Source of the DNA: a virus
Reading direction: 5' to 3' (one strand)
DNA: 20,956 nt
Virus record (IMG/VR): IMGVR_UViG_3300010885_026914
Coordinates: 1-20,956 of that record
Below are positions 2,510 through 20,556 of this stretch, piece by piece. Position 1 is the first letter of the stretch; the number at the start of each line of letters is the position of its first letter. A program made the position numbers and the translations under genes. Below the pieces are notes generated by a model. That model did not search any database and had not been told where the DNA came from. It was given only the letters and a program-made list of their open reading frames with translations.

Positions 2510-2539
2510 AACTATAATTTTTTAAATATTTTATGAAAA

Positions 2540-3223: not shown

Positions 3224-3236
3224 TTTTTATATAAAA

Positions 3237-4513: not shown

Positions 4514-4515
4514 AA

Positions 4516-5334: not shown

Positions 5335-5341
5335 ATGTTTT

Positions 5342-6328
5342 TTAAGAATATTGAATGATAACTCCAGAAGTATCTGGATTAATTACATTAGTATAACGAC
5401 GATGTTCTTGCCAACATTCATCCCCATTTTTTAAGTTTCCATTTCTGTCCATATATGTCCATTCAGTTACAATAGAATCAACAGGTCTCCACCAACCATC
5501 AGAATAATTCCAATCAAACCAATACATAGGAACAATAATATTTTGAAGATTAGTAGATAACCAAACTGGCCAAAATGAAAAAGTTGAGGATGACATAATA
5601 ACATTTTTTGCTGTATGGAGAATAGTATAATCAATTGAAAGTGGACCTCCCTTCATTTGATACCAACCAATTTTATAATTAGGTCCACCAGGTTCATTGG
5701 AAACTGCTGCACCAACTACTTCAATTCCAGGTATATGTTTTCTAGCAAGATCTACATCATCAGTGACAATTACAAATCGCATATCACTACGAAGTTCTTT
5801 CATTCTTTGAATTGCCATTTGATAATATTGAGGTGGCAAAAATGAATGACCAGTGGAATAATCTCCACCCCTAAAGTGAATAACACAAATATCATCAGAA
5901 GAATAATCATAAATGATTTTATCTTCGTCTACTTTACACCATTCACGAATATCATCTTTTCTATCTTCAATGTAAAGAAGATTTTGAAATGTACCATCAA
6001 TCTTTGTATTATCTGGAAGAAAGAAAAGACCGTGATCAATAGGATTCATATCATGTTGGTGTCTACCTTCTTTGTGGTGACCCTCTTGCCTTTCACGATA
6101 CCAATGGTCAATCCCTTCAGGAAGACTATCTGGAGGACCTCCATCTGGACTAGATCCCCCTACAACATCTTCTCCCCAAAAATAAGGCATCCATCCAGCG
6201 CCTTTCCATAGATTTTTTCCTTTAATTCCATAATTATACCCAAGCTTTTCTGCAATAATTCTTGTTACTACTGATGCCCAAATCTGATTTCCTAAACCAG
6301 ATCCAAGATACATTTCATTTACTAACAT
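5342..6328 (-). CDS. GT11-like glycosyltransferase with a long Gly/Pro/His-rich insertion
   Basis: This 328-residue protein has a fucosyltransferase fold signature: GLGNQIWASVVTRIIAEKLG (11-30), HFRGGDYS (151-158) matching the HxRxGD donor-binding motif, FVIVTDD (185-191), and SSSTFSFWPVWL (246-257) matching the C-terminal SSxSWW-type motif. It differs from the other GT11 proteins here by about 70 residues (roughly 40-110) rich in Gly, Pro, His and Trp between the first and second motifs, and by a longer C-terminus with many Trp. GDP-L-fucose or GDP-L-galactose is the expected donor type. It overlaps the preceding exostosin-like gene by seven bases. It is more divergent than the two close GT11 copies, so acceptor specificity is probably different. 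Confidence 0.78.
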   Translation of the reverse strand: MLVNEMYLGSGLGNQIWASVVTRIIAEKLGYNYGIKGKNLWKGAGWMPYFWGEDVVGGSSPDGGPPDSLPEGIDHWYRERQEGHHKEGRHQHDMNPIDHGLFFLPDNTKIDGTFQNLLYIEDRKDDIREWCKVDEDKIIYDYSSDDICVIHFRGGDYSTGHSFLPPQYYQMAIQRMKELRSDMRFVIVTDDVDLARKHIPGIEVVGAAVSNEPGGPNYKIGWYQMKGGPLSIDYTILHTAKNVIMSSSTFSFWPVWLSTNLQNIIVPMYWFDWNYSDGWWRPVDSIVTEWTYMDRNGNLKNGDECWQEHRRYTNVINPDTSGVIIQYS

Positions 6329-7263
6329 ATTTTTTTTAAATTTCCATTTACAATTTTATCAAAAAAAGATGAAAGTGTCAATGATGTCAAATTCATTTCT
6401 TGTGTTTGTTTAAATAGATAATCATTTTGTTCTAAAAGTTCTTTTGTGATTTCAGAATATTCATTTACAAAAAGAACAGGATAATCTTTAAACAAAACTT
6501 CAAGATATGGATGTCTTTTCATGATAGGAACTCTTCTCATATAGAGAACTTCCCAATTACGATGACAATCTATAGCATTTCCACGAGGACAAATCATAAA
6601 TTTTGATTGACTCAAATTATAAAGAAATACAGAATATGGAACTCTTTTATCATGAACTTCTGCCCATGATTTATTATAAAATAATTCTTTAATGCCTCTG
6701 CGTTCAATATTTGATCCTTCATCGTGACTTACATACAATAAACCTGGAGGATTTTTTGGAATATGCTTCATGCAATTTTCAATATCATCAATCCTATCAT
6801 CACCTGGATGCATCTTTCTTTGAAGTCCATATGGAGCAGGAATAACTTTACCTCCATGACTTATAGCATTGACAGCAGAAATACAAAGAACATTATCAGG
6901 AATCGCATCAAAAATATATTCATCAATTGGAGTATCTTCCAAATTAGTAAAAATAATAAATTTCATATCTGGAAAATGAGAGCATAATTTTAAAAGATCA
7001 CTTGTTTCCATCAATGATTCTATAATTGAACGATCTTCTTTTTTTACTTCTACAATATATCTTTTATATAAACGAATATTGTCAATAAACAAAGTCATAT
7101 AATTACGACTTTTTTTTATTTCAAATAATTTTTCGATAAACTCCAAATTTAATAAATTTGCATCTTTCATAAAAGATGTATAGATATTTCCCCATTGACC
7201 TCCCTGATCTCCAAAGGAATAATCACATAATTTTGAAAGTTCTACACCTTCAATTAATTCCAT
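6322..7263 (-). CDS. exostosin/RXYLT1-like glycosyltransferase (GT47-type C-terminus)
   Basis: In this 313-residue protein the C-terminal third holds KFMICPRGNAIDCHRNWEVL (221-240) and then MRRVPIMKRHPYLEVL. This is the conserved nucleotide-sugar-binding block of exostosin-like and RXYLT1 C-terminal domains (C-P-R-G-N, H-R-x-W-E, then V-P-I). The middle has IPAPYGLQRK and LLYVSHDEGSNIERRG, corresponding to the preceding GT-B strand and an Arg-rich loop. No transmembrane anchor is present, unlike eukaryotic members, as expected for a phage or bacterial enzyme. It probably transfers a sugar from a nucleotide donor. It overlaps the upstream GT17 gene by ten bases and the downstream GT11-like gene by seven. 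Confidence 0.72.
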   Translation of the reverse strand: MELIEGVELSKLCDYSFGDQGGQWGNIYTSFMKDANLLNLEFIEKLFEIKKSRNYMTLFIDNIRLYKRYIVEVKKEDRSIIESLMETSDLLKLCSHFPDMKFIIFTNLEDTPIDEYIFDAIPDNVLCISAVNAISHGGKVIPAPYGLQRKMHPGDDRIDDIENCMKHIPKNPPGLLYVSHDEGSNIERRGIKELFYNKSWAEVHDKRVPYSVFLYNLSQSKFMICPRGNAIDCHRNWEVLYMRRVPIMKRHPYLEVLFKDYPVLFVNEYSEITKELLEQNDYLFKQTQEMNLTSLTLSSFFDKIVNGNLKKIC

Positions 7264-8108
7264 GGTTTGATGACTTTAATGTATTTTTCTTGATTATTTA
7301 AAATATATTCTGGATAAGAATCATCAATTGGAACAGTTGTCAACAATCCACGATTCAATGGATCAATTCCCTTTTCTATTTTCTCTTCTGCATTATCTAC
7401 AACGGATGGAATATTACATTCAGTGTGTTCGTATGATTGCATCTTTAATCTAAAATTATCAGCATCACCAAAACAACTCCAGTGCCATCCACCTTGTTCT
7501 ATTTTATAAGAACTTCTATGTTGATTTCTCAACATATCAACTGAAGATTCGGAAAGAACCTTAAATGTTGAAATTCTTGTTCCCATCCAATTTTCTTGAC
7601 AAAGACAATTCAATTTATAATAAAAAGCTCTTTGAAGACAAACATAATGGGTTAATGGATCAAACCATTCTAAATTTTTAAGAATTAAAGGATTGATAAT
7701 TTCATCCGCATCACTAGTAAGAACAATATCATCATCATTTATACAAAAATTAACTAATCCATAGATACTACTATCACGATTAAAAATAGCTCTTTTAAAT
7801 CTCAATTCATACGTATCATAAGGAATTCCATCTAAATTCAATTCATTAAGGGGAGTATGATATTTTCTTTTTTCCATATATTCCGAATAGTCATTTGGAA
7901 TGACTTCAGTTACATTATGAATAATCTTATGATTGAATTTTTCAAACCTATCTTTATTTTCTTGATAATAAAGGGGTTTTGGGTTTCCACTTACAGTCCA
8001 AGGAGATTCCGTCAAAACAAAATAATCTACAACATCATTTAAGATGTTTAATCTCATTTCTAATAAATCAAGTTCATTAAAAAAAATAAAAGAATCAAAT
8101 ATTCTCAT
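7254..8108 (-). CDS. GT17-family glycosyltransferase
   Basis: The 284-residue protein begins MRIFDSFIFFNELDLLEMRL and has VLTESPWTVSGNPKPL (31-46) and IVLTSDADEIINP (128-140). This is the strand order and wording of GT17 (beta-1,4-N-acetylglucosaminyltransferase III-like) enzymes, with the Asp-Ala-Asp-Glu at 133-136 as metal/donor site. RAIFNRDSS supplies the usual basic segment. GT17 in bacteria and phages is found in surface-polysaccharide clusters. The ATG overlaps the stop of the upstream gene as ATGA. GlcNAc transfer is the family activity, not demonstrated here. Confidence 0.85.
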   Translation of the reverse strand: MRIFDSFIFFNELDLLEMRLNILNDVVDYFVLTESPWTVSGNPKPLYYQENKDRFEKFNHKIIHNVTEVIPNDYSEYMEKRKYHTPLNELNLDGIPYDTYELRFKRAIFNRDSSIYGLVNFCINDDDIVLTSDADEIINPLILKNLEWFDPLTHYVCLQRAFYYKLNCLCQENWMGTRISTFKVLSESSVDMLRNQHRSSYKIEQGGWHWSCFGDADNFRLKMQSYEHTECNIPSVVDNAEEKIEKGIDPLNRGLLTTVPIDDSYPEYILNNQEKYIKVIKPWN

Positions 8109-8896
8109 TGATTTTTATACTCCAAAATAAATTTTCTTTGTTGTTCATTGTTTTTCCAAGTTTTTAGTTGAATATAATTTTCCAAATTCATCATTTGGAC
8201 TGTAATATCAGAATCAAATAACATTTCTGGATTTAAATGCTCATCAAGATACAAATCACTACAATAAAAATTTTTCAAATTATTTGAACATAGTGCTGCC
8301 GCAACTGCAAATGTTCCCGTACCAGAAGATGCAAGATTTTTTGTTCTCAACAAAGTAGAAAAATCTTCATCAATAGAAGAAGACTGAATAGTTACTTTGT
8401 TTATTTTTTTAAGTTCATCAACTATTGGATTATAATTATCTGGTTCAGTTACTACAATTATTTTAGCATACTCATCAACCAAATTCAAATAATAGCAAAG
8501 AGGATTTGGAACATAGTCATGAGGGGGATTATGTTCATGTGCAAAAATATCTCCACTACGAATATGAATAACTAAAGTATCTTTATCAAATGAAGATCCA
8601 ATTTTAAATTTAAATTTAGGAACAATATAATCTTTTGCTACTCTACCAATATTTTGATAAAAATATTTAATATTAATATCAAAGTCTTTATTTTGAGTAT
8701 TGTAATGAAAAAATCTATTGGGTCTGGTTATAGTTTTATTTTCATTGTTTAATACTACTTGATCAATTAATTCATGTTCTGGGCTAAAAAATCCATCTTC
8801 ATGAATTTCAGAAAACAACACTCCATTACAAATTTGTTGAATATTATTTCCAAATCTCCCGTACCAATGGGAGATTGTATTTAAATAATTACTCAT
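8105..8896 (-). CDS. fucosyltransferase-fold glycosyltransferase (divergent GT11/NodZ-like)
   Basis: A 263-residue protein with GRFGNNIQQICNGVLF (13-28), corresponding to the first GT11 motif, and LVIHIRSGDIFAH (108-120), the HxRxGD donor phosphate-binding motif shared by alpha-1,2, alpha-1,6 and protein O-fucosyltransferases. It also has IIVVTEPDN (146-154) and a C-terminal LASSGTGTFAVAAALCS (188-204) in place of SSxSWWGAWL. The three motifs are in the correct order, but it is too divergent for me to fix the family. The likely donor class is GDP-L-fucose or GDP-L-galactose. It is coupled by ATGA overlaps at both ends, to the FkbM gene upstream and the GT17 gene downstream. Confidence 0.68.
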   Translation of the reverse strand: MSNYLNTISHWYGRFGNNIQQICNGVLFSEIHEDGFFSPEHELIDQVVLNNENKTITRPNRFFHYNTQNKDFDINIKYFYQNIGRVAKDYIVPKFKFKIGSSFDKDTLVIHIRSGDIFAHEHNPPHDYVPNPLCYYLNLVDEYAKIIVVTEPDNYNPIVDELKKINKVTIQSSSIDEDFSTLLRTKNLASSGTGTFAVAAALCSNNLKNFYCSDLYLDEHLNPEMLFDSDITVQMMNLENYIQLKTWKNNEQQRKFILEYKNQ

Positions 8897-9525
8897 AAAA
8901 ATTTTTGATTAATATAAAATGCGTCACCCCAAGTTCCACCCATCCAGTCAGTTTCAACTCTAACTAAATCATAAGAAGATAAAAATTCATCAATCTCTTG
9001 AATGAGAGCATTATTTTCATAAACTTCAGCATTGTTTACTTCGGTATAAACTGCATCAATTTTTTCTAAAGTTTTTAAAGCACCCTTAAGAACTTCCAAT
9101 TCATATCCTTGCGTATCCATATTAATAAAATTATAAGTATGGTTTTCATTAATTGCAAAATACGAATCAAGAGTAATCATTTCAACTTCTTCTGTCCTGT
9201 CAAATTTAATATCAGGATATTGGGTTAAAACAATTTTTGGTTTTAAAATAGAACTACAAAGTCCATCTTCATTGCAGATCATTTCAATATTTTTATTACT
9301 ATTACCCAATGCTTTATTTACTAAAATAATATTTTCAAAATTAAGTTCATTTGCAACTTTAGAAAGTTTTTCAAATGGACCTTTTTGTGGTTCAAATATT
9401 AAAATATTTTCTACATTTGAATTTTTGTAACTTGGAAGTTCTTGTCCAATATGACCTCCGATATGAATTACACCACTAACATCAATTTTATACTTATGGA
9501 CTAACGAAGAAAAACTAATTAACAT
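8893..9525 (-). CDS. FkbM-family SAM-dependent methyltransferase
   Basis: The 210-residue protein has the FkbM plan: GVIHIGGHIGQE (18-29, motif I), ILIFEPQKGPFEKL (41-54), IILVNKALGN (strand 3 with the typical N.A.G), VEMITLDSYF, FINMDTQGYELEVLKGA (the D-x-x-G-x-E-x-x-V-L-x-G hallmark) and AVYTEVN. FkbM proteins methylate hydroxyls on sugars and polyketides; a sugar O-methyl is likely here. Its C-terminus Gly-Gly-Thr-Trp-Gly-Asp-Ala-Phe-Tyr is the usual terminal strand. It overlaps the downstream gene as ATGA and is separated by three bases from the next methyltransferase upstream. Confidence 0.88.
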   Translation of the reverse strand: MLISFSSLVHKYKIDVSGVIHIGGHIGQELPSYKNSNVENILIFEPQKGPFEKLSKVANELNFENIILVNKALGNSNKNIEMICNEDGLCSSILKPKIVLTQYPDIKFDRTEEVEMITLDSYFAINENHTYNFINMDTQGYELEVLKGALKTLEKIDAVYTEVNNAEVYENNALIQEIDEFLSSYDLVRVETDWMGGTWGDAFYINQKFL

Positions 9526-9528
9526 TTT

Positions 9529-10221
9529 TTAAATTGCAAAGATACATTTTGTACTTTCTTTTGAAATTCTACTAGAATTTATAAATTTCTCAACAATTTC
9601 TGGATTTACTACTTGTGGATCAACATACCAATCTTCATAGGGATTATTCAAATTTGCTACATTTCTAACTACAAGTTGATATCCAAGAGATAAAAGTATT
9701 TCCATAGCCTCTTCACCTGCATCTGGACCATCTTTATAAGAATCAGTTTCATATGTAATCACAGAAAATCTATACTCATCAAGAGGAAGTGCTTTAAGAG
9801 CATTTAATGTCTGCCAAGCAGGTTCAATATCTACTTGAAGATAATCAATTTGTTTTGGAAATTTTTTTTCTTCAAATAATTTTGTATAATCAAAAGTCAA
9901 AGCATCCGCACAAATACATTTATTTTCACGTATTGAATTATATCCATTTACTTTTTCTGGATCAATTTCAAAAGAAACTCCATTCCAATTAAATTGAGTT
10001 TCCAAAAGATACGTATTGCTAATAATTACACCATGGTCACCACCAATCTCAACATATGTTCCATCTTTTTTTCCATCAAGAATACTGAGAGCAAACATAT
10101 CTTGAAATGCTTGAGAATAATTATTCTCAATATTTTCTACACCCGAAAATTTATATCGGAGTTTTTCCAAATCTTTTTTAAAATACCGATTACAATCGGG
10201 AAAAATAAATTCTTCAGTCAT
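9529..10221 (-). CDS. FkbM-like methyltransferase (atypical)
   Basis: In this 230-residue protein YSQAFQDMFALSIL (35-48) followed by GTYVEIGGDHGVIISNT (54-70) and GVSFEIDP (81-88) matches the FkbM-related proteins that start 'SQ..QD..V' and carry motif I with an acidic residue after strand 2. IDYLQVDIEPAWQTLNAL takes the place of the usual I-D-x-E-G-x-E-x-x-V-L-x-G loop, so the Gly-x-Glu part is altered (Pro-Ala-Trp). Either the substrate loop differs or the enzyme is a divergent relative. It overlaps the upstream dehydrogenase gene by eight bases. A role in methylating the cluster's glycan is inferred from context. Confidence 0.75.
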   Translation of the reverse strand: MTEEFIFPDCNRYFKKDLEKLRYKFSGVENIENNYSQAFQDMFALSILDGKKDGTYVEIGGDHGVIISNTYLLETQFNWNGVSFEIDPEKVNGYNSIRENKCICADALTFDYTKLFEEKKFPKQIDYLQVDIEPAWQTLNALKALPLDEYRFSVITYETDSYKDGPDAGEEAMEILLSLGYQLVVRNVANLNNPYEDWYVDPQVVNPEIVEKFINSSRISKESTKCIFAI

Positions 10222-11014
10222 AAATACCTCTTATTTTTTTATTATAATCCCAAGCTGCTTGTAGCAATTCAGAATTAATATTATTTTCATTTAATGTGTG
10301 AATAAGTGCGTTAATGTCTTTGGGAAAACAATAACCACCAAATCCCAATTTACCATCTGGTCCAGGAACTTTAGTGTGATGAGTTCCAATTCTATCATCC
10401 TTTACAATTGCATCTTTAACTTTATCGTAATTAATATTGAAACTATTACAAGTTTCATAAAGATTATTAAAATACGCAATTTTTAATGCCAAAAAAGAAT
10501 TTGAAAAATATTTAATTGTTTCTGATTCTTTAGATTGAACTATGTATAAAGGAGTATCATTCCACTCTGGAAAAATATCATAAAGAAATTCCCCAAACTG
10601 TTTTGCGTAAGAATAATCTCCTCCAACTACATTTCTATTACAATGCAAAAAATCATTTTTTGCATTTTCTGCAGTGAGAAATTCTGGATTATGTAAAATT
10701 TTAAGATCAAGTCTCAAACTGCAAAGTTGATCTGTTGTGCCAATAGGTACTGTAGATTTAATTACAAATAATCCAGATATGTTATTTGGAACTTCATTAA
10801 AAAAATTAAAAATATAAGAAGTGTCACAAGTTCCATCTTCCATCATTGGTGTAGGAAGACAAACAAAAATTACATCACAAGAAAGTACCTCATCGTATGA
10901 ATTTAATGTTTTTTCTGGAAAAACATCAAAAACTTTTGTAGAAATCCTATCTTTAAAATTTTGATAGATTGCATTTCCCACAAACCCATTTCCAATAATA
11001 CCTACAGTTTTCAT
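10214..11014 (-). CDS. UDP-glucose/GDP-mannose dehydrogenase-like protein lacking the C-terminal domain
   Basis: Counting from ATG 11014, this 266-residue protein has GIIGNGFVG (5-13, NAD site), VFVCLPTP-like VIFVCLPTP (48-56), KSTVPIGTT (86-94), NPEFLTAENA (109-118), SETIKYFSNSFLALKIAYFNN (Glu-Lys-Asn catalytic helix, about 164-184) and FGGYCFPKD (225-233) with the catalytic Cys229. Family members usually exceed 400 residues because a third domain binds the nucleotide; here the protein stops about 33 residues after the Cys motif. All oxidation residues are kept, so it may use another substrate or dimer partner. The TTG upstream start at 11023 is rejected: ATG 11014 forms ATGA with the upstream stop and has GGA at proper spacing. 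Confidence 0.82.
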   Translation of the reverse strand: MKTVGIIGNGFVGNAIYQNFKDRISTKVFDVFPEKTLNSYDEVLSCDVIFVCLPTPMMEDGTCDTSYIFNFFNEVPNNISGLFVIKSTVPIGTTDQLCSLRLDLKILHNPEFLTAENAKNDFLHCNRNVVGGDYSYAKQFGEFLYDIFPEWNDTPLYIVQSKESETIKYFSNSFLALKIAYFNNLYETCNSFNINYDKVKDAIVKDDRIGTHHTKVPGPDGKLGFGGYCFPKDINALIHTLNENNINSELLQAAWDYNKKIRGIYD

Positions 11015-12003
11015 TTTTTCCAATAATCGTAAATATCTTTTGTGACTTCATAATCCATAGTTTTAACTTTTCTATTTGGTTGTTTCATTGCCCAAACAAA
11101 CATACTATCAATGAGTTCTTCAAGATTAGTATTATCTTCAAATTGAAGAATTGTTTTTGCTTTTGTATGATCACAATATGCATGTTTTACTTCATGCCTT
11201 GGTTCGCCATGTTCAATTGGAACATCATAACCATACTTTTTACCTATTTTTTGAACTGTATCTGCAACTTCGTTTAGAGTGAAATATTTGTCAGCACCAA
11301 TATTAAAAGTTTCTCCATCACAATTAGTAAGAAGTTTGTCAAATGGTTCCATATAATATTTGATATCAGAAAATGCTCTGGTTTGTTCCCCATCACCATA
11401 AACTAAAATTGGTTCTCCATTTAATGTTTTACGAATAAAAATACCAATCACATTACGATACTTATCCCAAATGTTTTGATAAACACCAAGAACATTATGA
11501 GGACGAACAATATTATACCGAAGCCCAAACTGTTCATGAGCAAGTTTAAGATCACACTCTACGGCATATTTGGCAATACCATATGGATCAATTGGTTGAG
11601 GTTTTTTATCTTCTGTAAATGGAGGTTCTTGTTCTCCATAAACAGCCATACTGGACGTAAATATCATTTTAGTATTATGAGTAATACACTCATTAATCAA
11701 ATTTGCAGAGCAAATAAGATTATTTCTATAGTTAAAATTACGAATAAAAGGAGAAAGTCCTTCTGCAGCATATGCAGCAAAGTGCAAAAGAACATCAGGT
11801 TTGTGCTCTTCAAAAAGTTCTACAACTTTTTTTCTTCTTTCAAGATTAAATTTAACAAAAGTAAAATTTTCTGCCTTTGGAATAAATGCTTTATATCCTC
11901 CAGATAAATCATCAATACCAATTACTTCATGACCATTAGAAATAAGGTGACGACCATAATTAGCACCAAGCAATCCAGCGCATCCTGTTACAAAAATTTT
12001 CAT
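11011..12003 (-). CDS. NAD-dependent epimerase/dehydratase, UDP-glucose 4-epimerase-like
   Basis: Starting at ATG 12003 the protein (330 residues) opens MKIFVTGCAGLLGANYG, an extended-SDR dinucleotide motif (G-x-x-G-x-x-G, 7-13), with IDDLSGG at 30-36 (acidic residue for NAD). VLLHFAAYAA (71-80), TSSMAVYG (116-123) and YGIAKYAVE (141-149, catalytic Tyr141/Lys145) follow. It then continues VRPHNVLG, VYGDGEQTRAFSDIKYYMEP and FNIGADKYFTLNEVA, the GalE/RmlB-like ending. It probably interconverts a UDP- or GDP-sugar for the transferases downstream. An in-frame TTG at 12024 is less likely as start; ATG 12003 gives an ATGA overlap with the GT11 stop. Substrate is not determinable. Confidence 0.85.
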   Translation of the reverse strand: MKIFVTGCAGLLGANYGRHLISNGHEVIGIDDLSGGYKAFIPKAENFTFVKFNLERRKKVVELFEEHKPDVLLHFAAYAAEGLSPFIRNFNYRNNLICSANLINECITHNTKMIFTSSMAVYGEQEPPFTEDKKPQPIDPYGIAKYAVECDLKLAHEQFGLRYNIVRPHNVLGVYQNIWDKYRNVIGIFIRKTLNGEPILVYGDGEQTRAFSDIKYYMEPFDKLLTNCDGETFNIGADKYFTLNEVADTVQKIGKKYGYDVPIEHGEPRHEVKHAYCDHTKAKTILQFEDNTNLEELIDSMFVWAMKQPNRKVKTMDYEVTKDIYDYWKK

Positions 12004-12857
12004 ATTATTTTCCAATTTGAACAATATAGGTCTTTAGTTTCTTTGTCTGCATATGCAGAACCAAACCACATTTGAGGAGCAATGACTTTTTTGTTGGGAT
12101 TTTCAATTAACCAAGCACCCCACCAACTCATACTACTATTAGCAATTATAGCATGAGAACACAAAGACATCAAGCATAAGTCAGCATATGGAGTATAAGA
12201 ACCATCTGCATATTTATCAACTGGTTCAGAAATAAGAAATCTATCACTAGAAAAAAATTCTTGTTCCTTTACCCATTCTGGAGAATCAGAAAAAACAATT
12301 ACTGGTTGAGTATCATCAAATTCAGAAAGTGCTTTTTCGTAATATTCTACTGGTTGAACAGGATGTTGATCAGAACAATTTACATATGCCCATTTAAATC
12401 CACGAGGATCAACAAGATTTGGATCACCACGACGAACATGAAGCATAATAGGTTCCTGTCCTTCCAGAGATTGCATCATCTCTTTGCATGGTTCTAGATG
12501 CTCATCATGAAATGTAAAATCTTTGCGAATTTCATCTGAAATATGTTTGAAATATTTTTCGGATTGATAGAATCCATGAAGACTTACATTATCTGGACAT
12601 TGATTAAACAGTTCCTCATCAAAATGAAAAAATCTTTCTTGAACATAATTCAAATCTTCATGATAAGAGAGATTATTATCTTTTACAGATTCCAATTTAA
12701 AACAATTATGAAGACTATAGTTTTCAATACCAGTTTTATGAAAGGGAGGAATGCACCAATTATATCCATGATGATCGGCAATACCTCTTACTGCCGCATA
12801 TTCAAACATTTGGTTTCCCAGTCTACCCAAATTACCAATTTGATTAAATGCTAACAT
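12000..12857 (-). CDS. GT11-family fucosyltransferase-like glycosyltransferase (copy 2)
   Basis: A 285-residue GT11 protein with GRLGNQMFEYAAVRGIAD (11-28), LHVRRGDPN (139-147), PVIVFSDSPEW (185-195), and NSSMSWWGAWL (240-250). Compared with the copy at 1736-2509, the N-terminal 40 residues, the SEKYF block, the FSDxP motif and the SWWGAWL motif are nearly the same. This copy has extra loops near 41-70 and 146-170 (WAYVNCSDQHPVQP). The N-terminal coding DNA of the two also looks alike, so they are paralogues. The expected donor is GDP-L-fucose or its 6-hydroxy analogue GDP-L-galactose. Five bases separate it from the methyltransferase upstream. Confidence 0.9.
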   Translation of the reverse strand: MLAFNQIGNLGRLGNQMFEYAAVRGIADHHGYNWCIPPFHKTGIENYSLHNCFKLESVKDNNLSYHEDLNYVQERFFHFDEELFNQCPDNVSLHGFYQSEKYFKHISDEIRKDFTFHDEHLEPCKEMMQSLEGQEPIMLHVRRGDPNLVDPRGFKWAYVNCSDQHPVQPVEYYEKALSEFDDTQPVIVFSDSPEWVKEQEFFSSDRFLISEPVDKYADGSYTPYADLCLMSLCSHAIIANSSMSWWGAWLIENPNKKVIAPQMWFGSAYADKETKDLYCSNWKII

Positions 12858-12862
12858 TAAAT

Positions 12863-13615
12863 TTATTCTGCTAAAATTTCTAATTCATTTTCAATTAAAT
12901 CAATATCTTGACCCCAATCAATAAAATTAGTATTTTCTTTATTGAAGTAAAGATTATTTACGGTATTTCTTGCAGAAAAAATTTCATCCCATTTAATATT
13001 TTTTTTGCATTTATCAAAAAATGATAAATTTTTAATTTGAACAAAAGTCATACCATAACTTTTTGGATAACATTTTACAATCAAATCTTCATTTTCAAAA
13101 TCAATCATTTCATCTAACATAAAAAATTCCATAATTGCTTCTTCAACACGGCCATATTTAATTCCACCATGAGTTTCTGCCGATCCAGGTTCCCAATGAG
13201 AATCATGAAATACAAAATATCCATTTTCTTTAATATGGTTTGACCAAAAATATAATTCACAAAGAACTTGTTCTCTAAAATGGATAGTATCTACAAATAT
13301 AATATCGAATGGATCTTCATCCCAATTTTTTCCTAAAGTTACACTATCCGCTTGGTAACAAAGATAATTTTCATTTACAAAACGAGCACCCATTTGACTA
13401 AATACATCAAACATCAAATCACATCCACAAACTTGATTATTTCTTTCTTTTGATTCATAAGAAAGAATCGCAGAAGAAGGACCAAACCTAACACCAAGAT
13501 CCATAAATCTTGCATTATTCATAGTTTTAACGAGATCTAAAAGAATCCAAGAATTTTCTCCCAAATCACAATGAGGTTCGTTAATAAAATTTTGAAGTTC
13601 AATAATATTAGACAT
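12863..13615 (-). CDS. class I SAM-dependent methyltransferase (Methyltransf_24/CmcI-like)
   Basis: From ATG 13615 the protein has 250 residues. MDLGVRFGPSSAIL (38-51) is motif I, CGCDLMFDVFS (63-73) gives the acidic residue, FDIIFVDTIHFREQV (103-117) is strand 4, and GYFVFHDSHW (132-141) is strand 5 with the His-Asp-Ser-His signature of cephalosporin-hydroxylase/Methyltransf_24-like proteins. The frame runs on to a TTG at 13660, but ATG 13615 is preceded by GGAG at good spacing and overlaps the upstream epimerase stop by eight bases. It probably modifies a sugar; which one is unknown. Confidence 0.78.
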   Translation of the reverse strand: MSNIIELQNFINEPHCDLGENSWILLDLVKTMNNARFMDLGVRFGPSSAILSYESKERNNQVCGCDLMFDVFSQMGARFVNENYLCYQADSVTLGKNWDEDPFDIIFVDTIHFREQVLCELYFWSNHIKENGYFVFHDSHWEPGSAETHGGIKYGRVEEAIMEFFMLDEMIDFENEDLIVKCYPKSYGMTFVQIKNLSFFDKCKKNIKWDEIFSARNTVNNLYFNKENTNFIDWGQDIDLIENELEILAE

Positions 13616-14459
13616 AATTTTTCTCCATATCTTTAAAGACTTTTGATATTCCTTGTTCAATGCTTGTTTTTGGCATCCACCACTTCATAATATAAGGATC
13701 AGCAACATTCCTTTTATCCATTTGAACATTATCTTTTTCAATAGATGGTTGCAGTTTAACATCATATTTACCAATCAAATTAAATTGTCCCATAATTATA
13801 TTGGCAATATCAATGATTTTTGTAGAATGGAAACTGGTAATATGCAATTCATCTTCTGATGTAAAATCAGTATAATTATCCATAATGATTTCAAGTGCAT
13901 CGCAACAATCTTCTGCATAAAGAAACTCACGTTCTTCTTGACCATCTGTAAGCATATCAATTACACCAGTCTCAAATCCTTTGCGAATAAAGTCTGTGAT
14001 CGCATGTGACTTATCATAATCTTTTTCAATACCATAAACATTCCAGAATTTAACGATCAGTCCATTGAGTGATTTGGTATACAGTTCACCAACGTTCTTA
14101 AGAACTCCGTATGGAGAGTAACTCATATTACTCATTTGAGATGAGGCAAAAATAAATCTCTTATTATACTTTTGAAGAAGACCAAAGGCATTTGCCATCA
14201 AACGAATATTGTTATTAATAAACTGGAAAGTATGTTGGTACTTTTTAAGATAACGTGATCCACCCACATCAAATGCAAGGAAGAATACAAAGTCTGCAGT
14301 CTCAATTGCATTTTCAAGATATTGATTGGGAATAACAGTCATATCATGATTAAGAGTTTCCACCTTATCAAAATCAATAACTACGTGACCTTTACTGCGA
14401 AGATATTCCGAAAGATAGGCACCGATCTGCCCACTGGATCCTAAAATTGTAATTTTCAT
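13608..14459 (-). CDS. NAD-dependent epimerase/dehydratase (extended SDR)
   Basis: This 283-residue extended SDR shows ILGSSGQIGAYL (5-16) as the dinucleotide motif, FVFFLAFDVGGSRY (57-70), IFASSQMSN (103-111) and SPYGVLKNVGE (115-125, catalytic Tyr117/Lys121). VKFWNVYG (136-143) and REFLYAEDCCDAL follow, the latter equal to the F-x-Y-x-x-D-x-x-x-A element before the substrate domain. It is somewhat shorter than GalE/RmlB. It sits directly between the GDP-mannose 3,5-epimerase (ATGA overlap) and a methyltransferase, so it may act on the same nucleotide sugar, for example as a later epimerase or reductase. The specific reaction is not readable from sequence. Confidence 0.82.
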   Translation of the reverse strand: MKITILGSSGQIGAYLSEYLRSKGHVVIDFDKVETLNHDMTVIPNQYLENAIETADFVFFLAFDVGGSRYLKKYQHTFQFINNNIRLMANAFGLLQKYNKRFIFASSQMSNMSYSPYGVLKNVGELYTKSLNGLIVKFWNVYGIEKDYDKSHAITDFIRKGFETGVIDMLTDGQEEREFLYAEDCCDALEIIMDNYTDFTSEDELHITSFHSTKIIDIANIIMGQFNLIGKYDVKLQPSIEKDNVQMDKRNVADPYIMKWWMPKTSIEQGISKVFKDMEKNYV

Positions 14460-15499
14460 TTTTTAATTTGCCCACCAATCCATTCATATGTTTTGCGAAT
14501 ACCTTCTTCAAGAGATTGTGAATAATCCCAACCAAGTTCTCTACGAACTACGTCATTATTAGAATTACGTCCACGAACCCCAAGAGGTCCATCAATATGG
14601 TTCTTTTCTACTTTCTTTCCAGCAACTTTTGCAGCAGTTTCTACAAGTTGATTGATAGTTACCATTTCCTCTGAACCAATATTTACTGGTCCAATGAAAT
14701 CAGAATCCATCATACGACGAGTTGCTTCAATACACTCATCAATATAAAGGAATGAACGAGTCTGCAAACCATCACCCCAGACTTCAATCGTACCACCGTC
14801 TTCTGGAAGATATGCTACTTTACGACAAATTGCTGCTGGTGCTTTCTCGCGTCCACCTTCCCATGTTCCTTCGGGGCCAAAGATATTATGATAACGAGAT
14901 ACCCTAACAGGTATGCCATGATTCCTATGATAGGCAAAGTAAAGACGTTCCGAAAAAAGTTTTTCCCATCCATATTCAGAGTCTGGTGCAGCAGGATAAG
15001 CGGATTCTTCACGGCAGTCAGGATTATCAGGATCAAGTTGATTGTGCTCTGGATACATACATGCAGACCCAGAATAGAAGATCTTGGTCTTATTAACACC
15101 AATCCTTTCATTCATCTGATGTTGCATCTCAAGGACGTTGAGATTAATTGTAACTGAATTATGCATAATATCTGCATCATTCTCACCAGTGAAAACAAAT
15201 CCTGCTCCACCCATATCAGCAGCAAACTGATAGATTTCATCAAATGATTGAATATAACGATAAGGAACTGAATTGTAGAAGTTACCTCTATCTCCTTTAT
15301 ATTCAAGAACACGACGAACAAAATCTATATCACGAAGATCTCCCTGAACAAATTCATTTGCTTCAGTAGGAGAATACTCAGGTCTCTTAAGATCTACACC
15401 ACGAACCCAATATCCTTCGGAACGTAGTCTTTTAACCATGTGACTTCCAATAAAGCCACCAGCACCAAGAACAAGTGCTTTTTTAATATATTGACTCAT
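14456..15499 (-). CDS. GDP-mannose 3,5-epimerase-like enzyme (GDP-L-galactose forming)
   Basis: This 347-residue extended SDR is the best-identified enzyme of the cluster. Beyond the generic GAGGFIGSH (12-20) and YGWEK (176-180), it carries the specific landmarks of plant/bacterial GME: FAADMGGAGFV (92-102), SGSACMYPE (143-151, Cys147 as a catalytic acid/base), RYHNIFGPEGTWEGGREKAP (202-221, Lys219 the second acid/base), VWGDGLQTRSF (240-250), PVNIGSEEMV and GPLGVRGRNSNN (304-315). GME turns GDP-D-mannose into GDP-L-galactose and GDP-L-gulose. It is the first gene after a sigma70-like promoter and has visibly higher G+C than the genes after it. There is an insertion near 62-82 relative to the plant enzyme. 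Loss of specificity towards another GDP-hexose is possible. Confidence 0.88.
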   Translation of the reverse strand: MSQYIKKALVLGAGGFIGSHMVKRLRSEGYWVRGVDLKRPEYSPTEANEFVQGDLRDIDFVRRVLEYKGDRGNFYNSVPYRYIQSFDEIYQFAADMGGAGFVFTGENDADIMHNSVTINLNVLEMQHQMNERIGVNKTKIFYSGSACMYPEHNQLDPDNPDCREESAYPAAPDSEYGWEKLFSERLYFAYHRNHGIPVRVSRYHNIFGPEGTWEGGREKAPAAICRKVAYLPEDGGTIEVWGDGLQTRSFLYIDECIEATRRMMDSDFIGPVNIGSEEMVTINQLVETAAKVAGKKVEKNHIDGPLGVRGRNSNNDVVRRELGWDYSQSLEEGIRKTYEWIGGQIKK

Positions 15500-15528
15500 A
15501 AATCAATTTGTTAGTGTATGTATTATGT

Positions 15529-16490: not shown

Positions 16491-16925
16491 TTATTCAAGA
16501 AAAGATCTCAGCATCCAAACGAACTTGCCATGTGCTTCGTTTAAATCATCAACAAGATTGACAGTTCCTCTTGACTTTTGTGCTTCTGCTTCTTCAGCAA
16601 CTTCACCTAACATATCTATAATTTTTTTATGACCTTCAAGTAAATCTTCAATCATCTCCATTTCGGAAATATTAGTTTTTGCTTCTCCAACTCCAGATAC
16701 TTCTACAACTCTAGATAAAGAACTAATAGGTTTAATACTCAAAAATCTCATATGTTCTGATACACGATCAACTTCTTCTTGAATTGCCCCATATTGCTCT
16801 CCAAATAGATCATGAATTTGCTTAAAGTCAGATCCAACAATGTGCCAATGGTAAACCCAGGTTTTTTGAAATAGCAAAAAAAGTGACGCCTGAGCATCAC
16901 TTATGAGTTTAAACAATTTTTCCAT
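16491..16925 (-). CDS. dps: Dps-like miniferritin
   Basis: The 144-residue protein has the Dps/ferritin-like four-helix pattern: TWVYHWHIVGSDF (22-34), IHDLFGEQYGAIQEEVDRVSEHM (37-59), then an ILLE-like helix GHKKIIDMLGEVAEEAE and a final helix. All inter-subunit ferroxidase ligands are present: His26, His38, Asp53 and Glu57. Dps forms a 12-mer shell that oxidises iron with peroxide, stores it and can protect DNA. It is somewhat short and lacks a Lys-rich N-terminal tail, so direct DNA binding is less likely than iron/peroxide detoxification. A perfect late promoter octamer precedes it. Its neighbour upstream is a porin, which suggests an envelope/iron theme. A host-derived auxiliary metabolic gene is the likely origin. 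Confidence 0.9.
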   Translation of the reverse strand: MEKLFKLISDAQASLFLLFQKTWVYHWHIVGSDFKQIHDLFGEQYGAIQEEVDRVSEHMRFLSIKPISSLSRVVEVSGVGEAKTNISEMEMIEDLLEGHKKIIDMLGEVAEEAEAQKSRGTVNLVDDLNEAHGKFVWMLRSFLE

Positions 16926-16963: not shown

Positions 16964-16990
16964 AAAGACAAAATCCCCCGCAAGGGGGAT
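16964..16990 (-). terminator. strong intrinsic terminator after the porin gene
   Basis: On the minus strand ATCCCCC-TTGC-GGGGGAT (16973-16990) forms a seven-base-pair GC-rich stem followed by TTTGTCTTTC. It lies 26 bases after the porin stop codon and just before the Dps late promoter, insulating the two genes. Confidence 0.85.
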
Positions 16991-17016: not shown

Positions 17017-18498
17017 TCAGAAGGTGAACTTGGTCTGAACCACTCCACCCCAAGACGATTCATTTTGGAATCGTTGGTTGTTGCTTACATAGAAGATAGC
17101 AGGAGTGATGCTGATGTTGTCCGAAACTTGATACTTATAGAAGACTTCAAGCATCGTGGCATCATCACCAATGAAGTCAGAATTACCGGGTTGACCAACG
17201 GCAACACCAGCAGTATTACCTTGAGCAAATACATCAGACCACTGAAGTCCAACGAACCAAGAATCAGAATCGGTGGCACCAGTTTTAGAACCTTTGCCAT
17301 CTACATCATTATATCCATAACCAACTGAGATAGAAGGAACGAATCCACTCTGAGAAGGTTGCCAGTAAGCATTCAGAGCAATGCTATTGCTTTCCTGACC
17401 TGTGGCAAGAGCACCAGACCCTCCTCCAAGGGCATTAAAGGTGCGGACACGACTGCCTTCAGTACCATAACGGTAAGCAACCGCAGCACCCCACTGAGGA
17501 GCACGATAACCAACTTGTGCTAGGAAGTTCAATCCACTATCGGAATTGAAGACACCAGTTTCAGTGTTATCACCATCTTGAGAGACATAGTTCAGACCAG
17601 CAAGGAACCCTCCCTGACCTTTTGGAACTTGTTGCTTCCATTGAGCACCAAAACCAGCACCAGTTGCCTTGTTATAGACACCAGAGGCACCACCAAGTTG
17701 GAAGAAGTCAAGGATTTCCGACTTATAAGCAGAAGGAACCCATGCCATCTCTGTGTTACGAACCAGAGGACCAGCAGTTAAAGTTACACTCTTACCAACT
17801 GGGAACTGATAATACAGACGGTCAATCACAACTTGGTCGGCATAAGATTCTGCCTTATCAAGTTTGAATAGTGAAGAACTGGAACCAAAAGGATCAGAAC
17901 TGAAGTTACCAGAACGCAGACGAGTACGGAGCAAGTCCTTACCAGTGAACGAGGTATCAAAGTTCAGACGAACATCATAGTTAAATGCAGTATTACCTAC
18001 ATCAACACGTTTGTTAGTTTCAAGACCGGGAACGCCACCAAGAATAAAGTTTACTTCACCTTTGAGTTTGGTAGTGGTAGAGAATTGTGTTGCTTCCAAG
18101 TTTCCAACACGGTTCTCAAGACCATCTACACGAGCAGTGATAACAGTAAGTTCTGCATCAAACTCAGCAAGAAGTTTTTTAAGTTCATCGGTAGTTTCAG
18201 TTACACGATCTAGGCAAGCATTCAAAAGAGCAGCAGCTTCATAACGAGTCATTGCCTGACGACCCACAAAGGTGCCATTAGGATAACCTGCTACGCAACC
18301 ATAACGCTCTACAAGATTGCTAAGTGCCTGATATGCCCAATCAGTAGGTTGGACATCAGTAAATTGGGTAACGCTTGTGACTTGTTGTGCCGAGGCATAC
18401 TTATTGACATCCTCAGTATTGAGTTCTGCAGCATTCACCGCAGGAGCAATAAGACCCAGTGCAACAGGCACGAGCATTAGTTTTTTAAGAAAATTCAT
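17017..18498 (-). CDS. SLH-domain outer-membrane porin (cyanobacterial OprB/iron-uptake-porin type)
   Basis: The 493-residue protein has a Sec signal peptide (MNFLKKLMLVPVALGLIAPAVNA, cut before AE at 24), one S-layer homology domain at about 45-100 (FTDVQPTDWAYQALSNLVERYG, then GYPNGTFVGRQAMTRYEAAALL), and a coiled coil at about 103-137. A long barrel of alternating strands follows, ending VVQTKFTF with the terminal Phe of outer-membrane barrels. This is the plan of cyanobacterial SomA/SomB-like porins, in which the SLH domain grips the peptidoglycan-linked polymer. It is clearly richer in G+C than its neighbours, as expected for a gene taken from a host. It would insert into the host outer membrane and change its permeability to small solutes, possibly iron. 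The substrate is unknown. Confidence 0.9.
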   Translation of the reverse strand: MNFLKKLMLVPVALGLIAPAVNAAELNTEDVNKYASAQQVTSVTQFTDVQPTDWAYQALSNLVERYGCVAGYPNGTFVGRQAMTRYEAAALLNACLDRVTETTDELKKLLAEFDAELTVITARVDGLENRVGNLEATQFSTTTKLKGEVNFILGGVPGLETNKRVDVGNTAFNYDVRLNFDTSFTGKDLLRTRLRSGNFSSDPFGSSSSLFKLDKAESYADQVVIDRLYYQFPVGKSVTLTAGPLVRNTEMAWVPSAYKSEILDFFQLGGASGVYNKATGAGFGAQWKQQVPKGQGGFLAGLNYVSQDGDNTETGVFNSDSGLNFLAQVGYRAPQWGAAVAYRYGTEGSRVRTFNALGGGSGALATGQESNSIALNAYWQPSQSGFVPSISVGYGYNDVDGKGSKTGATDSDSWFVGLQWSDVFAQGNTAGVAVGQPGNSDFIGDDATMLEVFYKYQVSDNISITPAIFYVSNNQRFQNESSWGGVVQTKFTF

Positions 18499-18625: not shown

Positions 18626-18696
18626 ATTGGATACACGGATTTGAACCGAGGAGTTCTTCTTAGAAGAGAGGAATGTTACCAATACATCAATTACGC
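18626..18696 (-). pseudogene. degenerate tRNA-like sequence (Arg-UCU-like loop)
   Basis: On the minus strand a T arm CTCGG-TTCAAAT-CCGTG (one mismatch, 18634-18650), an anticodon loop CTTCTAA with UCU in the anticodon position (18660-18666), and a D arm ATGT-ATTGGTA-ACAT (18673-18687) follow each other at tRNA spacing. The anticodon stem has mismatches, and the bases where the acceptor should pair (5' near 18690-18696 against 3' near 18627-18633) do not match. It may be a decayed tRNA-Arg(UCU), a common cyanophage tRNA, or chance similarity. Confidence 0.4.
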
Positions 18697-18710
18697 ACAT
18701 ATTGATCATA

Positions 18711-19118
18711 TCACTCATTAAGGCAATCGTCAATCCAAGGGGCACATAAACGCATTTCTCCACCTAAAGACTTACATTCATCCGTATAGCATACAGATTC
18801 ATCTACAGGTTTCTCTGAAAATATTGGAGCAGGAATCTCTACGGGTTTTTCTCTAGTTTTTCTCCAATACTCATCAATTGCACTATCAACATCCCTCTCA
18901 ATTCTTCGGTCAAGTTTCTCTGGGTCTTTGATGATTAACTCATTAAGAATAGTTTGTGGGAAATATTTTCTTTGCATTTCATCCAATAAGTCCCATAAAG
19001 TATTTGTGGATATTCCAGAGCATTGGGAGAGTGCTGCAATAATGGAGGTCAATACAACTCCTATAATTGCATATTGTTTAATATCAGGTTTCTTCTTGCC
19101 AAAATTGAAATTAAACAT
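18711..19118 (-). CDS. single-TM protein, possible lysis accessory protein
   Basis: The 135-residue protein starts MFNFNFGKKKPDIKQ, positively charged, then has one hydrophobic segment YAIIGVVLTSIIAALSQCSG (16-35), followed by a helical charged region (WDLLDEMQRKYF, DRRIERDVDSAIDEYW), a Pro-rich stretch (EKPVEIPAPIFSEKP) and four Cys near the end (SVCYTDECKSLGGEMRLC, then DDC). This fits an N-in membrane anchor with a periplasmic domain. It directly follows the lysozyme gene and has its own late-type promoter, so a spanin- or holin-like role is possible; neither family is recognised. Gln before the Cys at 33 argues against a lipoprotein. Confidence 0.7.
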   Translation of the reverse strand: MFNFNFGKKKPDIKQYAIIGVVLTSIIAALSQCSGISTNTLWDLLDEMQRKYFPQTILNELIIKDPEKLDRRIERDVDSAIDEYWRKTREKPVEIPAPIFSEKPVDESVCYTDECKSLGGEMRLCAPWIDDCLNE

Positions 19119-19169: not shown

Positions 19170-19811
19170 TCAGACTTCAACAAGAACTAATTTATTTGCA
19201 TAGTTATAAGCAAAGTCAGTTCTTGCCCCATGATGACCCCAACGAATCCACTTACTTGCAAGACGCATGTAGTGAGTAATGGACCCACCAGGTGTTTTCA
19301 TTTGGTTCTCAATCATCTTCCAATCACCTTCGTGCAGCATATAGTCAAGTTGTGCATCCAGTGAGGAAGGATTAGCACCAATACGGGCAGCGTGTCTTCC
19401 TAGTCCATAAAAACGAGGAGCATTAGTCCATTGGATAAGACCATACCCCCCACCACAATTAGGATAGGAAGTTCTAGCACCACCCTCACAAATATTAGGT
19501 GTGAAGGTAGATTCTTGTCGGATATTGCCCATAATGGTTGCTATGGCGTTTTTGTCAGTAATTCCACGTTTCTGTAAGAATTCTACAGTCTTCGTTTCAT
19601 TAGTATTACATCCTTTACAAACTAATCGTTTAACTTTAGGTTTCTCGGGAACAACCTCTTTGGTCTCTGTCTCTTGAGTAGGCGCTTCAGGAACAATTGA
19701 AAATGGTTGTACTACTGAAGATGTTGCCATACTCGGTGCTGGCAGTGTTGCCGCTGATGTTGCAACCGCACCCAAAATTGCTACGGTTACATTTGTTAGG
19801 TTTTTAAGCAT
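19170..19811 (-). CDS. exported phage tail-lysozyme-type muramidase
   Basis: The 213-residue protein has an N-terminal signal-like hydrophobic segment (about 5-30, with AxA-type sites near 20-30) and a Pro/Thr/Glu linker (41-62). A domain from about residue 73, TVEFLQKRGITDKNAIATIM, follows, then GNIRQESTF (95-103, Glu100 the likely catalytic acid) and GGYGLIQWT (121-129). This is the Phage_lysozyme2/tail lysozyme pattern with a lysozyme-like fold that cuts peptidoglycan. It also has four Cys (65, 68, 108, 119) that could form disulfides in the periplasm. A signal peptide suggests Sec export, so it is more like an endolysin than a baseplate lysozyme, though a virion role cannot be excluded. 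Confidence 0.85.
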   Translation of the reverse strand: MLKNLTNVTVAILGAVATSAATLPAPSMATSSVVQPFSIVPEAPTQETETKEVVPEKPKVKRLVCKGCNTNETKTVEFLQKRGITDKNAIATIMGNIRQESTFTPNICEGGARTSYPNCGGGYGLIQWTNAPRFYGLGRHAARIGANPSSLDAQLDYMLHEGDWKMIENQMKTPGGSITHYMRLASKWIRWGHHGARTDFAYNYANKLVLVEV

Positions 19812-19943: not shown

Positions 19944-20138
19944 TTAAAAATCCACAAAATAACCATTAATATAATCGAGTGATAATACTTCAAGATTTTC
20001 TTTTTGAATTACCCAATCACGGATTTCACTATAGATACATTCCGCATCTCTTGCTCTACCCTCTTCACATAAATCGCACATACGATTAATATGTTGTTGT
20101 ATCGTATTATTGCAGATTTTTTTGATATGAAGTTGCAT
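19944..20138 (-). CDS. small protein of unknown function (64 aa)
   Basis: A 64-residue protein, MQLHIKKICNNTIQQHINRM, then CDLCEEGRARDAECIYSEIRDWVIQ and a C-terminal hydrophobic YINGYFVDF. It appears fully helical with three Cys, one pair as CDLC, but too few ligands for a standard zinc finger. The start overlaps the nuclease gene by 32 bases; ATG 20138 is favoured because AGGAAGGA lies at suitable spacing upstream. A start at the internal Met20 would remove the overlap. No family is recognised. Confidence 0.6.
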   Translation of the reverse strand: MQLHIKKICNNTIQQHINRMCDLCEEGRARDAECIYSEIRDWVIQKENLEVLSLDYINGYFVDF

Positions 20139-20556
20139 TAAAGTAATCCTTCCTGAAATATCGGTTCATGACATTTGAATTGTAATACGCAGGAGTCCCA
20201 CTGTCAAGTGCTTCGGTCAGGACGTTGTTTAAAAATAATTGCCTCGTCTCTTCATAGTTTGTTTTACCTAATGTCTTATGAAGAGATACTATAGTTCTTT
20301 GGAACTTATCCTTTCCATGTTTCTTTATATCTTCTTTTAATTCAGGACAAGAACCATAATAATTTTTCCAATCACTTTCTTGTTTTACTTTTCTTTTCTT
20401 TCCTTTCGGTGTTCTAAAAGACCAAAAGTATTTTCTTCCCAAATATTTCCTTTGAGTTTCTTCGCAACTTATCAAATAAACAAATCCAAAATTCTCTTGA
20501 ATATCTTCTGTCTCAAAAACTTTTCCTTGATATAACCAAGGATTATCATAACTCAT
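20107..20556 (-). CDS. GIY-YIG/Seg-like putative endonuclease
   Basis: The 149-residue protein contains GFVYLISCEETQRKYLGRKYFW (24-45), in which F-V-Y and Y-L-G stand in for the GIY and YIG motifs at the usual 10-12 residue spacing. A basic loop KGKKRKVKQESDWKNYYGS (51-69) and a helix ending TNYEETRQLF (99-108) with a candidate metal-binding Glu follow. Similar proteins are annotated as putative endonucleases in T4-like phages. It has no obvious DNA-binding repeat, so it could be a freestanding homing-type nuclease or a host-DNA nuclease. A perfect late promoter octamer precedes it. The nuclease call is moderate because the first motif is degenerate. Confidence 0.7.
   Translation of the reverse strand: MSYDNPWLYQGKVFETEDIQENFGFVYLISCEETQRKYLGRKYFWSFRTPKGKKRKVKQESDWKNYYGSCPELKEDIKKHGKDKFQRTIVSLHKTLGKTNYEETRQLFLNNVLTEALDSGTPAYYNSNVMNRYFRKDYFNATSYQKNLQ

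Follow-up and report, generated by a model that had tools for sequence, protein, structure and literature searches.

An SLH-anchored porin in a T4-like cyanophage contig and the different barrels of its phage relatives

Phage PA-2 carries the Lc porin of E. coli. Other outer-membrane barrels have been reported from viruses and prophages: marine viral contigs hold OmpL beside glnK-amtB (PMC8115048) and NmpC, a host-type barrel, is listed under the DLP prophage (PMC5811629); the passages of these two papers that we draw on mention neither an SLH anchor nor an exchange of barrels. Phage-borne outer-membrane barrels, among them a phage porin in GenBank, are already on record (passages of PMC8115048; names in BFVD).

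The closest cellular proteins to the porin described here are the cyanobacterial SLH-OprB porins (SomA/SomB; Slr1841 and Slr1908 of Synechocystis), which have the same domains. The OmpM proteins of diderm Firmicutes (8bys, 8bym) share the succession of SLH domain, stalk and 16-strand barrel but are cellular and not viral; OmpM1 is the 'outer membrane attachment porin' of Veillonella. To judge from passages of two reports, SLH barrels can serve both as links between membrane and wall and as routes for ions or iron (PMC8707739, PMC10628300). Among phage isolates, S-SRM01 encodes an annotated 'porin' (QPX48248.1; MW015081) of the same type as ours, A1 in the scheme used below, with 70% identity over the full length; the word 'porin' occurs 0 times in the main text of the S-SRM01 paper (PMC8557907; term search). 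S-PM2 encodes a 'putative S-layer protein' (YP_195203.1, S-PM2p170) and S-CREM1 an 'iron uptake porin' (UYA57656.1), each with a signal peptide recognized by eye, an SLH domain and a helix (45% and 61% identity there, respectively). Unlike the porin described here, these two have a predicted 8-strand C-terminal barrel and no OprB match at E 1. Little work seems to exist on phage genes that alter the outer membrane of cyanobacteria during infection, and our literature search gave one sentence on the family.

An intact SLH-OprB porin and its surroundings

The window, meaning the whole stretch of DNA that was analysed (a virus record of 20,956 bases), contains on its minus strand an uninterrupted ATG-to-stop frame of 493 aa that fits 17017-18498 exactly. 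The gene and the parts of its protein are as follows.

17017..18498, minus strand: SLH-OprB porin gene, 493 aa, type A1 barrel (ORF call, Pfam, NCBIfam, AlphaFold2)
18421..18498, minus strand: signal peptide region, residues 1-26 (by eye; the same extent was used in the selection analysis)
18232..18363, minus strand: SLH domain, residues 46-89, with a TRYE motif (Pfam PF00395; motif from sequence reading)
18088..18246, minus strand: long helix, residues 85-137 (AlphaFold2, low pLDDT; putative coiled-coil stalk by analogy with OmpM)
17020..18075, minus strand: predicted 16-strand beta-barrel, residues 142-493, Phe-terminated (AlphaFold2; Foldseek to OprB and OmpM1)

The protein matched the Pfam SLH profile PF00395 at residues 46-89 (E 1.6e-8) and the OprB profile PF04966 at residues 101-493 (E 4.9e-16; profile 2-372 of 372), both above their cut-offs, which gives it the SLH-OprB architecture of the SomA/SomB type. 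The match to the NCBIfam model NF033921 (por_somb, 'iron uptake porin') scored 304 bits (cut-off 100) and spanned profile positions 1-485 of 485; at such lengths, these domain matches are far beyond chance. The AlphaFold2 model (57 aligned rows) places a long helix at residues 85-137, followed by 16 strands that span 142 to 492, with pLDDT mostly >90 in the barrel and <65 in the N-terminal third, and its nearest solved folds were OprB and OmpM1 (Foldseek). Compared with the OmpM chain, the SLH and stalk part matched at E 1e-21 and the fold at E 8e-12, with 13-14% identity in the structural alignment. The N-terminus (MNFLKKLMLVPVALGLIAPAVNA/A) is of the Sec type by eye, and the C-terminus reads TKFTF.

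Positions 17017-18498 thus hold an intact SomA/OmpM-type porin in a T4-like cyanophage contig. This agrees with the initial annotation, which had described a full-length porin in a phage region: the 493-aa frame is intact, NF033921 matches along its full length, the neighbours belong to phage families and S-SRM01 has a counterpart. Of the functional parts it had listed as complete, the SLH domain, the barrel and the C-terminal Phe were found, the Sec signal is a reading by eye, and the putative coiled coil is a helix of low pLDDT, so called by analogy with OmpM. Ion or iron channel activity is putative, by kinship with the SomA/SomB-type family, as are cell-wall binding by the SLH domain and trimer formation, by analogy with OmpM; the model is a monomer.

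The phage families found around the porin are SegE, phrog_512 (lysozyme-like), phrog_3316, Phd antitoxin and a nucleotide-sugar epimerase. Its nearest neighbours and candidate signals are as follows.

16491..16925, minus strand: Dps-like ferritin gene, downstream neighbour (Pfam PF00210, phrog_3636)
16973..16990, minus strand: intrinsic-terminator-like hairpin directly after the porin stop (13 such sites in the scanned region against a mean of 3.6 in shuffles)
18628..18696, minus strand: weak tRNA resemblance ahead of the porin gene (Rfam RF00005 at 20.6 bits, short of the gathering threshold of 29, E 0.47)
18705..18733, minus strand: sigma-70-like promoter match about 200 nt upstream of the porin (consensus match only; 31 sites against a mean of 22.1 in shuffles)
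18711..19118, minus strand: phrog_3316 gene, upstream neighbour (PHROG match)
19170..19811, minus strand: phrog_512/Phage_lysozyme2 gene, upstream neighbour (Pfam and PHROG matches)

ARAGORN found no tRNA in the window; the weak tRNA-like stretch at 18628-18696 (minus strand) sits where relatives often carry intact tRNAs. The motif TATAAATA, which we take to be a late-type promoter motif, occurs twice in the window, which is not above chance; one copy directly precedes the Dps gene and none precedes the porin, so a late promoter ahead of the porin was rejected. Positions 20107-20556 (minus strand) carry the phrog_447 label 'NAD synthetase', as does a distant S-SRM01 relative, at odds with a SegE GIY-YIG endonuclease domain there (Pfam, E 4.3e-52). 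Positions 1-15500 (minus strand) hold about 20 ORFs, many of which look by eye like glycosyl-, fucosyl- and methyltransferases or epimerases. A profile scan of a single ORF in this left part confirmed a 347-aa epimerase, and the left 15 kb adjoining the porin are likely a surface-glycan cluster, which would agree with surface change as a theme without proving anything. The first 12 kb had no megablast match in phage records.

Base composition departs from that of host porins. The window porin has a GC content of 0.445 and a GC3 of 0.316, whereas 108 host porins average 0.614 and 0.793, respectively; across 59 phage porins, mean GC3 is 0.327. The composition had been called host-like; the GC content of the gene merely exceeds that of the flanking phage DNA.

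Related stretches numbered 311, 339 and at least 567 in three overlapping IMG/VR scans. With relatives this common and one isolate already annotated, the earlier view of such a gene as unusual is unsupported. Among 50,697 phage records, 6 matched at E 1e-5, representing three phages (S-SRM01, S-PM2 and S-CREM1). A phrog_3316 relative is present in 67 phage records, so most records with phrog_3316 lack an SLH barrel. In S-SRM01 the lysozyme-like gene and phrog_3316 precede the annotated porin and Dps follows it; at 1e-5, S-SRM01 alone among Synechococcus phage records matched the Dps-like ferritin. In GenBank the S-SRM01 porin begins six codons past the conserved ATG, which truncates its signal peptide (locus L002, 15007-15025). 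The 'S-layer domain protein' of P-SSM4 (T4-GC425) was rejected as a further member, having no Pfam match at E 0.1. Cellular relatives of the full porin query were found in 286 of 300 genomes drawn from one host family, with a best identity of 64-65% and, in comparison, a low GC3 in the phage copies. Two contigs titled Microbacteriaceae and Bifidobacterium breve (L085, L117) hold cyanophage-type and picocyanobacterial-type porins, and these MAG contigs are probably mis-binned or mislabelled.

Four barrels in two genomic contexts

Four phage versions occur in the same genomic contexts: A1, the type of the window; A2 and A3, which surfaced in a host-seeded IMG/VR scan; and class B, to which the S-PM2 and S-CREM1 proteins belong. 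These two (279 and 292 aa) keep the SLH part and differ in the C-terminal part, where neither OprB nor any other Pfam family matched at E 1, SLH being the sole match; the complete class B relatives fetched end in a conserved ...GxGxKF. The class B model has eight strands, predicted with modest confidence (mean pLDDT 61.8). Its matches among solved folds were OmpA, OprG, OmpW and Ail (Foldseek, E 8e-5 to 1e-3), and VIA-align gave Z scores of 14.7 for OmpW, 14.0 for OmpA and 14.0 for NspA across 140-144 residues (1bxw: Z 14.0, 144 residues, rmsd 2.9). Neither an OmpA profile nor the C-terminal OmpA peptidoglycan-binding domain was matched in Pfam (two proteins at E 1, four at E 0.1), and we describe class B as OmpA-like in its predicted fold without filing it as OmpA. 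A barrel of this fold would be closed and probably has little or no wide pore. The C-terminal part was found in none of 300 host-family genomes, drawn in the manner described above, in a search whose positive control recovered 6 of 6 phage records. A 156-aa 'outer-membrane beta-barrel domain-containing' protein of cyanophage S-CBWM1 (BFVD A0A3G1L3F6) matched the class B fold at E 2.1e-4.

The modelled barrel would make the S-PM2 'S-layer protein' an outer-membrane protein, whereas the passage of a 2010 review that discusses it argued from S-layers (PMC2984593). That passage, reporting second-hand, calls the S-PM2 gene early and abundantly transcribed and suggests protection. As far as our literature search shows, the interpretation of this protein as an SLH-anchored barrel of eight strands, which depends on the model, is new, as are the recurrent place with four barrels and the mosaic of anchor and barrel described below; no paper on barrel exchange in such phage proteins was found in open-licence text.

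Viral loci were taken as the best 80 of 311, the best 80 of 339 and the best 80 of at least 567 stretches, from which 164 distinct genes were classed (83 A1, 2 A2, 10 A3 and 69 B). Two recurrent contexts account for 149 of the 164; 7 have another context and 8 have short flanks. The first, with the lysozyme or phrog_3316 upstream, Dps or its neighbours downstream, or both, was found on both sides in 45 genes and on one side in 27. The second, defined by an hli match within 4 kb downstream, holds 71 genes; 6 genes, all class B, meet both tests. A1, A2, A3 and B each occur in both contexts. Locus L203 repeats the gene order of the window with a class B gene replacing the porin and the Phd gene alone undetected, L267 has the window order with an A2 barrel, and in L263 the order is similar around an A3 gene, with neither phrog_3316 nor Dps detected. 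Dps often lies downstream, after porin and class B genes alike, and for this reason a pairing of porin and Dps for iron was rejected as specific. Among 30 long records (85-284 kb) picked for holding A or B, all 30 had exactly one barrel gene (15 A, 15 B).

A tRNA-Gly lies 44-212 nt before the start of the barrel gene in 76 of the 158 genes with enough upstream sequence (42/79 A1, 1/2 A2, 1/9 A3, 32/68 B), with anticodon TCC in 74 and GCC in 2. For comparison, 29 tRNAs of any kind were found in the 400 nt downstream at 150 loci. This tRNA-Gly precedes the barrel gene in L002, L012, L031, L164, L203, L263, L267 and others, and in several is the last of a tRNA array; exchange may take place at the tRNA region. 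The tRNA-Gly was rejected as the mark of one context, being missing from L009 (lysozyme/Dps) and present in L164 (hli).

Histories of anchor and barrel, and selection on the loops

We compared anchors and barrels by DNA identity in steps of 25 codons. In four of five A3 representatives (L259, L262, L266, L272) and in both A2 genes (L267, L278), codons 1-150 show 73-99% identity per step to an A1 phage gene, and beyond codon 150 identity falls to 30-71% (A3) and 51-80% (A2), with exceptions at codons 175-200 and, in A2, in the last step. Two control pairs of A1 genes kept 68-97% and 61-91% identity along the whole gene. At the protein level, the mosaic A2 and A3 anchors are 91-93% identical to A1, and their barrels have 45-58% identity with A1 and 59-64% with the nearest host. 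The A3 protein of L256 lacks the mosaic, its anchor being 83% identical to hosts and 81% to A1.

Of the phylogenetic trees, the larger used complete non-redundant rows, 167 of 282 candidates after clustering at 93%, and the AU tests used 77 of the 167, leaving out 6 long host rows and 84 others and retaining 19 of 52 A1 rows; the window protein is represented by L006 (100% identical). For anchors, a single phage clade was not rejected (p-AU 0.582; constrained tree 3.35 log units ahead of the unconstrained one, 77 rows, in an alignment of 143 columns that leaves about half of the forks unresolved). For barrels it was rejected (319 log units worse, p-AU 1.1e-4, 77 rows): the 16-strand barrels of A1, A2 and A3 group with different host porins at three separate places, and the barrel tree needs three changes, each forced by starred branches. 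A single phage porin clade had been seen at first, with 44 phage rows, and was rejected for barrels after A2 and A3 entered. A kinship with picocyanobacterial porins had been proposed for phylogenetic study; in our unrooted trees, built from loci chosen by similarity (best 80 per scan), the phage porins do group among picocyanobacterial sequences. We infer a direction of transfer from host to phage. Between class B and A anchors identity is only about 39-72% where they align, so sharing of the anchor is established for the A types alone; judged by sequence, the phage line appears to have kept its own anchor with differing barrels in A1, A2 and most A3.

The A1 porins are under purifying selection, with a median dN/dS of 0.153 (73 pairs at 85-96% identity; 0.132 in strands and 0.189 in extracellular loops). 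With loop topology inferred from a periplasmic N-terminus, L3, the presumed constriction loop, is the most conserved A1 loop (0.40 bits, against 1.1-1.6 for L1, L4, L6, L7 and L8). The ratio of surface-loop to strand variability is 1.96 in A1 phages and 2.07 and 2.39 in two host groups, and hypervariable loops specific to phages are unsupported against these controls; the same pattern in both host groups marks a working porin, not a special evolution of the surface. The L3/strand ratio is 0.71 in A1 phages and 0.92 and 0.55 in the host groups. The anchor/strand ratio is 1.05 in A1 phages against 0.60 and 0.61 in hosts (52, 18 and 29 rows), the phage anchor being relatively less conserved. Loop trimming specific to phages is unsupported in A1 (the surface loops have a median total of 107 residues, and those of the nearest host clade 102) and in A2 (146 against 142); the A3 surface loops are shorter than those of host sisters (123 against 182 residues, host range 142-193).

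What the anchored barrels may do

We favour, tentatively, an anchored protein that resurfaces the infected cell, acting through exclusion, tethering or both; among the possible roles we rank resurfacing first, tethering second and feeding third. The signal peptide, the Phe-ended barrel and the SLH domain on its stalk would lead to export, insertion into the outer membrane and hooking to the cell wall. A host-related porin line in phages seems to have kept its own anchor under 16-strand barrels that fall at three host places, and other phages in the same contexts would pair an anchor of this design with a predicted OmpA/OmpW-like barrel of eight strands. The shared job would be that of an anchored surface protein that re-covers the infected cell, hinders secondary infection or grazing, and also helps to hold the outer membrane to the wall, with production early and in quantity, as reported for S-PM2 only. 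The 16-strand versions may also maintain ion or iron flow, as the conservation of the presumed constriction loop L3 would suggest.

Because an 8-strand barrel can occupy the place of the pore, pore feeding is unlikely as the shared function, and with little or no pore expected in the small barrel the common job should be that of an anchored surface protein. All versions share an anchored outer-membrane barrel, not a wide pore, which lowers feeding and leaves resurfacing and tethering. The initial annotation, partly supported as a whole, had proposed either feeding of the infection or replacement of a host surface protein to block superinfection; on sequence comparison the second fits better, and the first is weakened by the predicted 8-strand barrel that takes the pore's place in the same contexts. 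A protective role had already been suggested in print for the S-PM2 relative, in the passage of the review cited above (PMC2984593). Our search of open-licence text found neither experiments on these phage SLH barrels nor expression data for class A.

Among the results that speak against resurfacing, the A1 surface loops are no more variable, relative to strands, than those of host porins; near host clades have loops no longer than those of A1 and A2; and most isolates have no version at all, given the three phages among 50,697 records. A stronger form of the favoured reading, which we regard as doubtful, is that cyanophages have a dedicated resurfacing gene that combines a phage-specific anchor with exchanged host-type barrels or a phage-specific 8-strand stand-in, the pore being optional. 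If true, this would be a viral counterpart of antigenic variation, in which infected cells change their surface protein and exclude competing phages or grazers. The family is common in environmental phage sequence, selected, present once per genome in long records, and offers a natural replacement of A by B in one place. A vague idea of host-surface remodelling by phages thereby becomes a clean question, namely what unites a 16-strand pore and an 8-strand barrel on a like anchor, and S-PM2 and S-SRM01 are isolates with named Synechococcus hosts that carry one version each.

It is unlikely, though consistent with the SLH domain, helix and outer-membrane barrel common to all four versions, that the protein is primarily an envelope tether, by which the phage would add links between outer membrane and wall against blebbing or detachment during host shutdown and keep the cell whole until timed lysis, the barrel being a mere membrane plug. 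Disruption of the Synechocystis SLH-OprB porin Slr1908 increased vesicle release (passages of PMC8707739), and deletion of three of the four OmpM paralogues of Veillonella detached the outer membrane (passages of PMC10628300). The relatively lower conservation of the A1 phage anchor compared with host anchors speaks against tethering as the main constraint, however, and tethering alone leaves unexplained why differently derived barrels sit on the phage anchor.

Still less probable is a feeding role, in which the phage porin would act as an auxiliary metabolic gene that boosts uptake of iron or other ions during infection. The NCBIfam name 'iron uptake porin', a Slr1908 mutant with about 40% less iron (passages of PMC8707739), the conserved L3 and the Dps-like ferritin gene often found downstream are in its favour. 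However, the predicted 8-strand barrel replaces the 16-strand pore in the same contexts, Dps lies downstream of both kinds, and an L3/strand ratio that falls between those of the two host groups is expected of any working porin.

That the protein helps lysis or release, by weakening the outer membrane or as a late spanin-like link, we consider very improbable. Lysis-related genes do lie nearby (the phrog_512 lysozyme-like gene, and a lysin-family gene in many loci), but an intact SLH domain should strengthen the envelope and the presumed late-type motif TATAAATA precedes Dps, not the porin. The S-PM2 relative is, moreover, reported as early transcribed (passage of PMC2984593). A hitch-hiking host gene or contig chimera of no phage function, for which relatives in nearly all host-family genomes (286/300) might speak, is scarcely credible: the isolates S-SRM01, S-PM2 and S-CREM1 carry members, which refutes this reading for the family, GC3 is phage-like, dN/dS is 0.15, and 149 of the 164 distinct genes lie in the two recurrent phage contexts.
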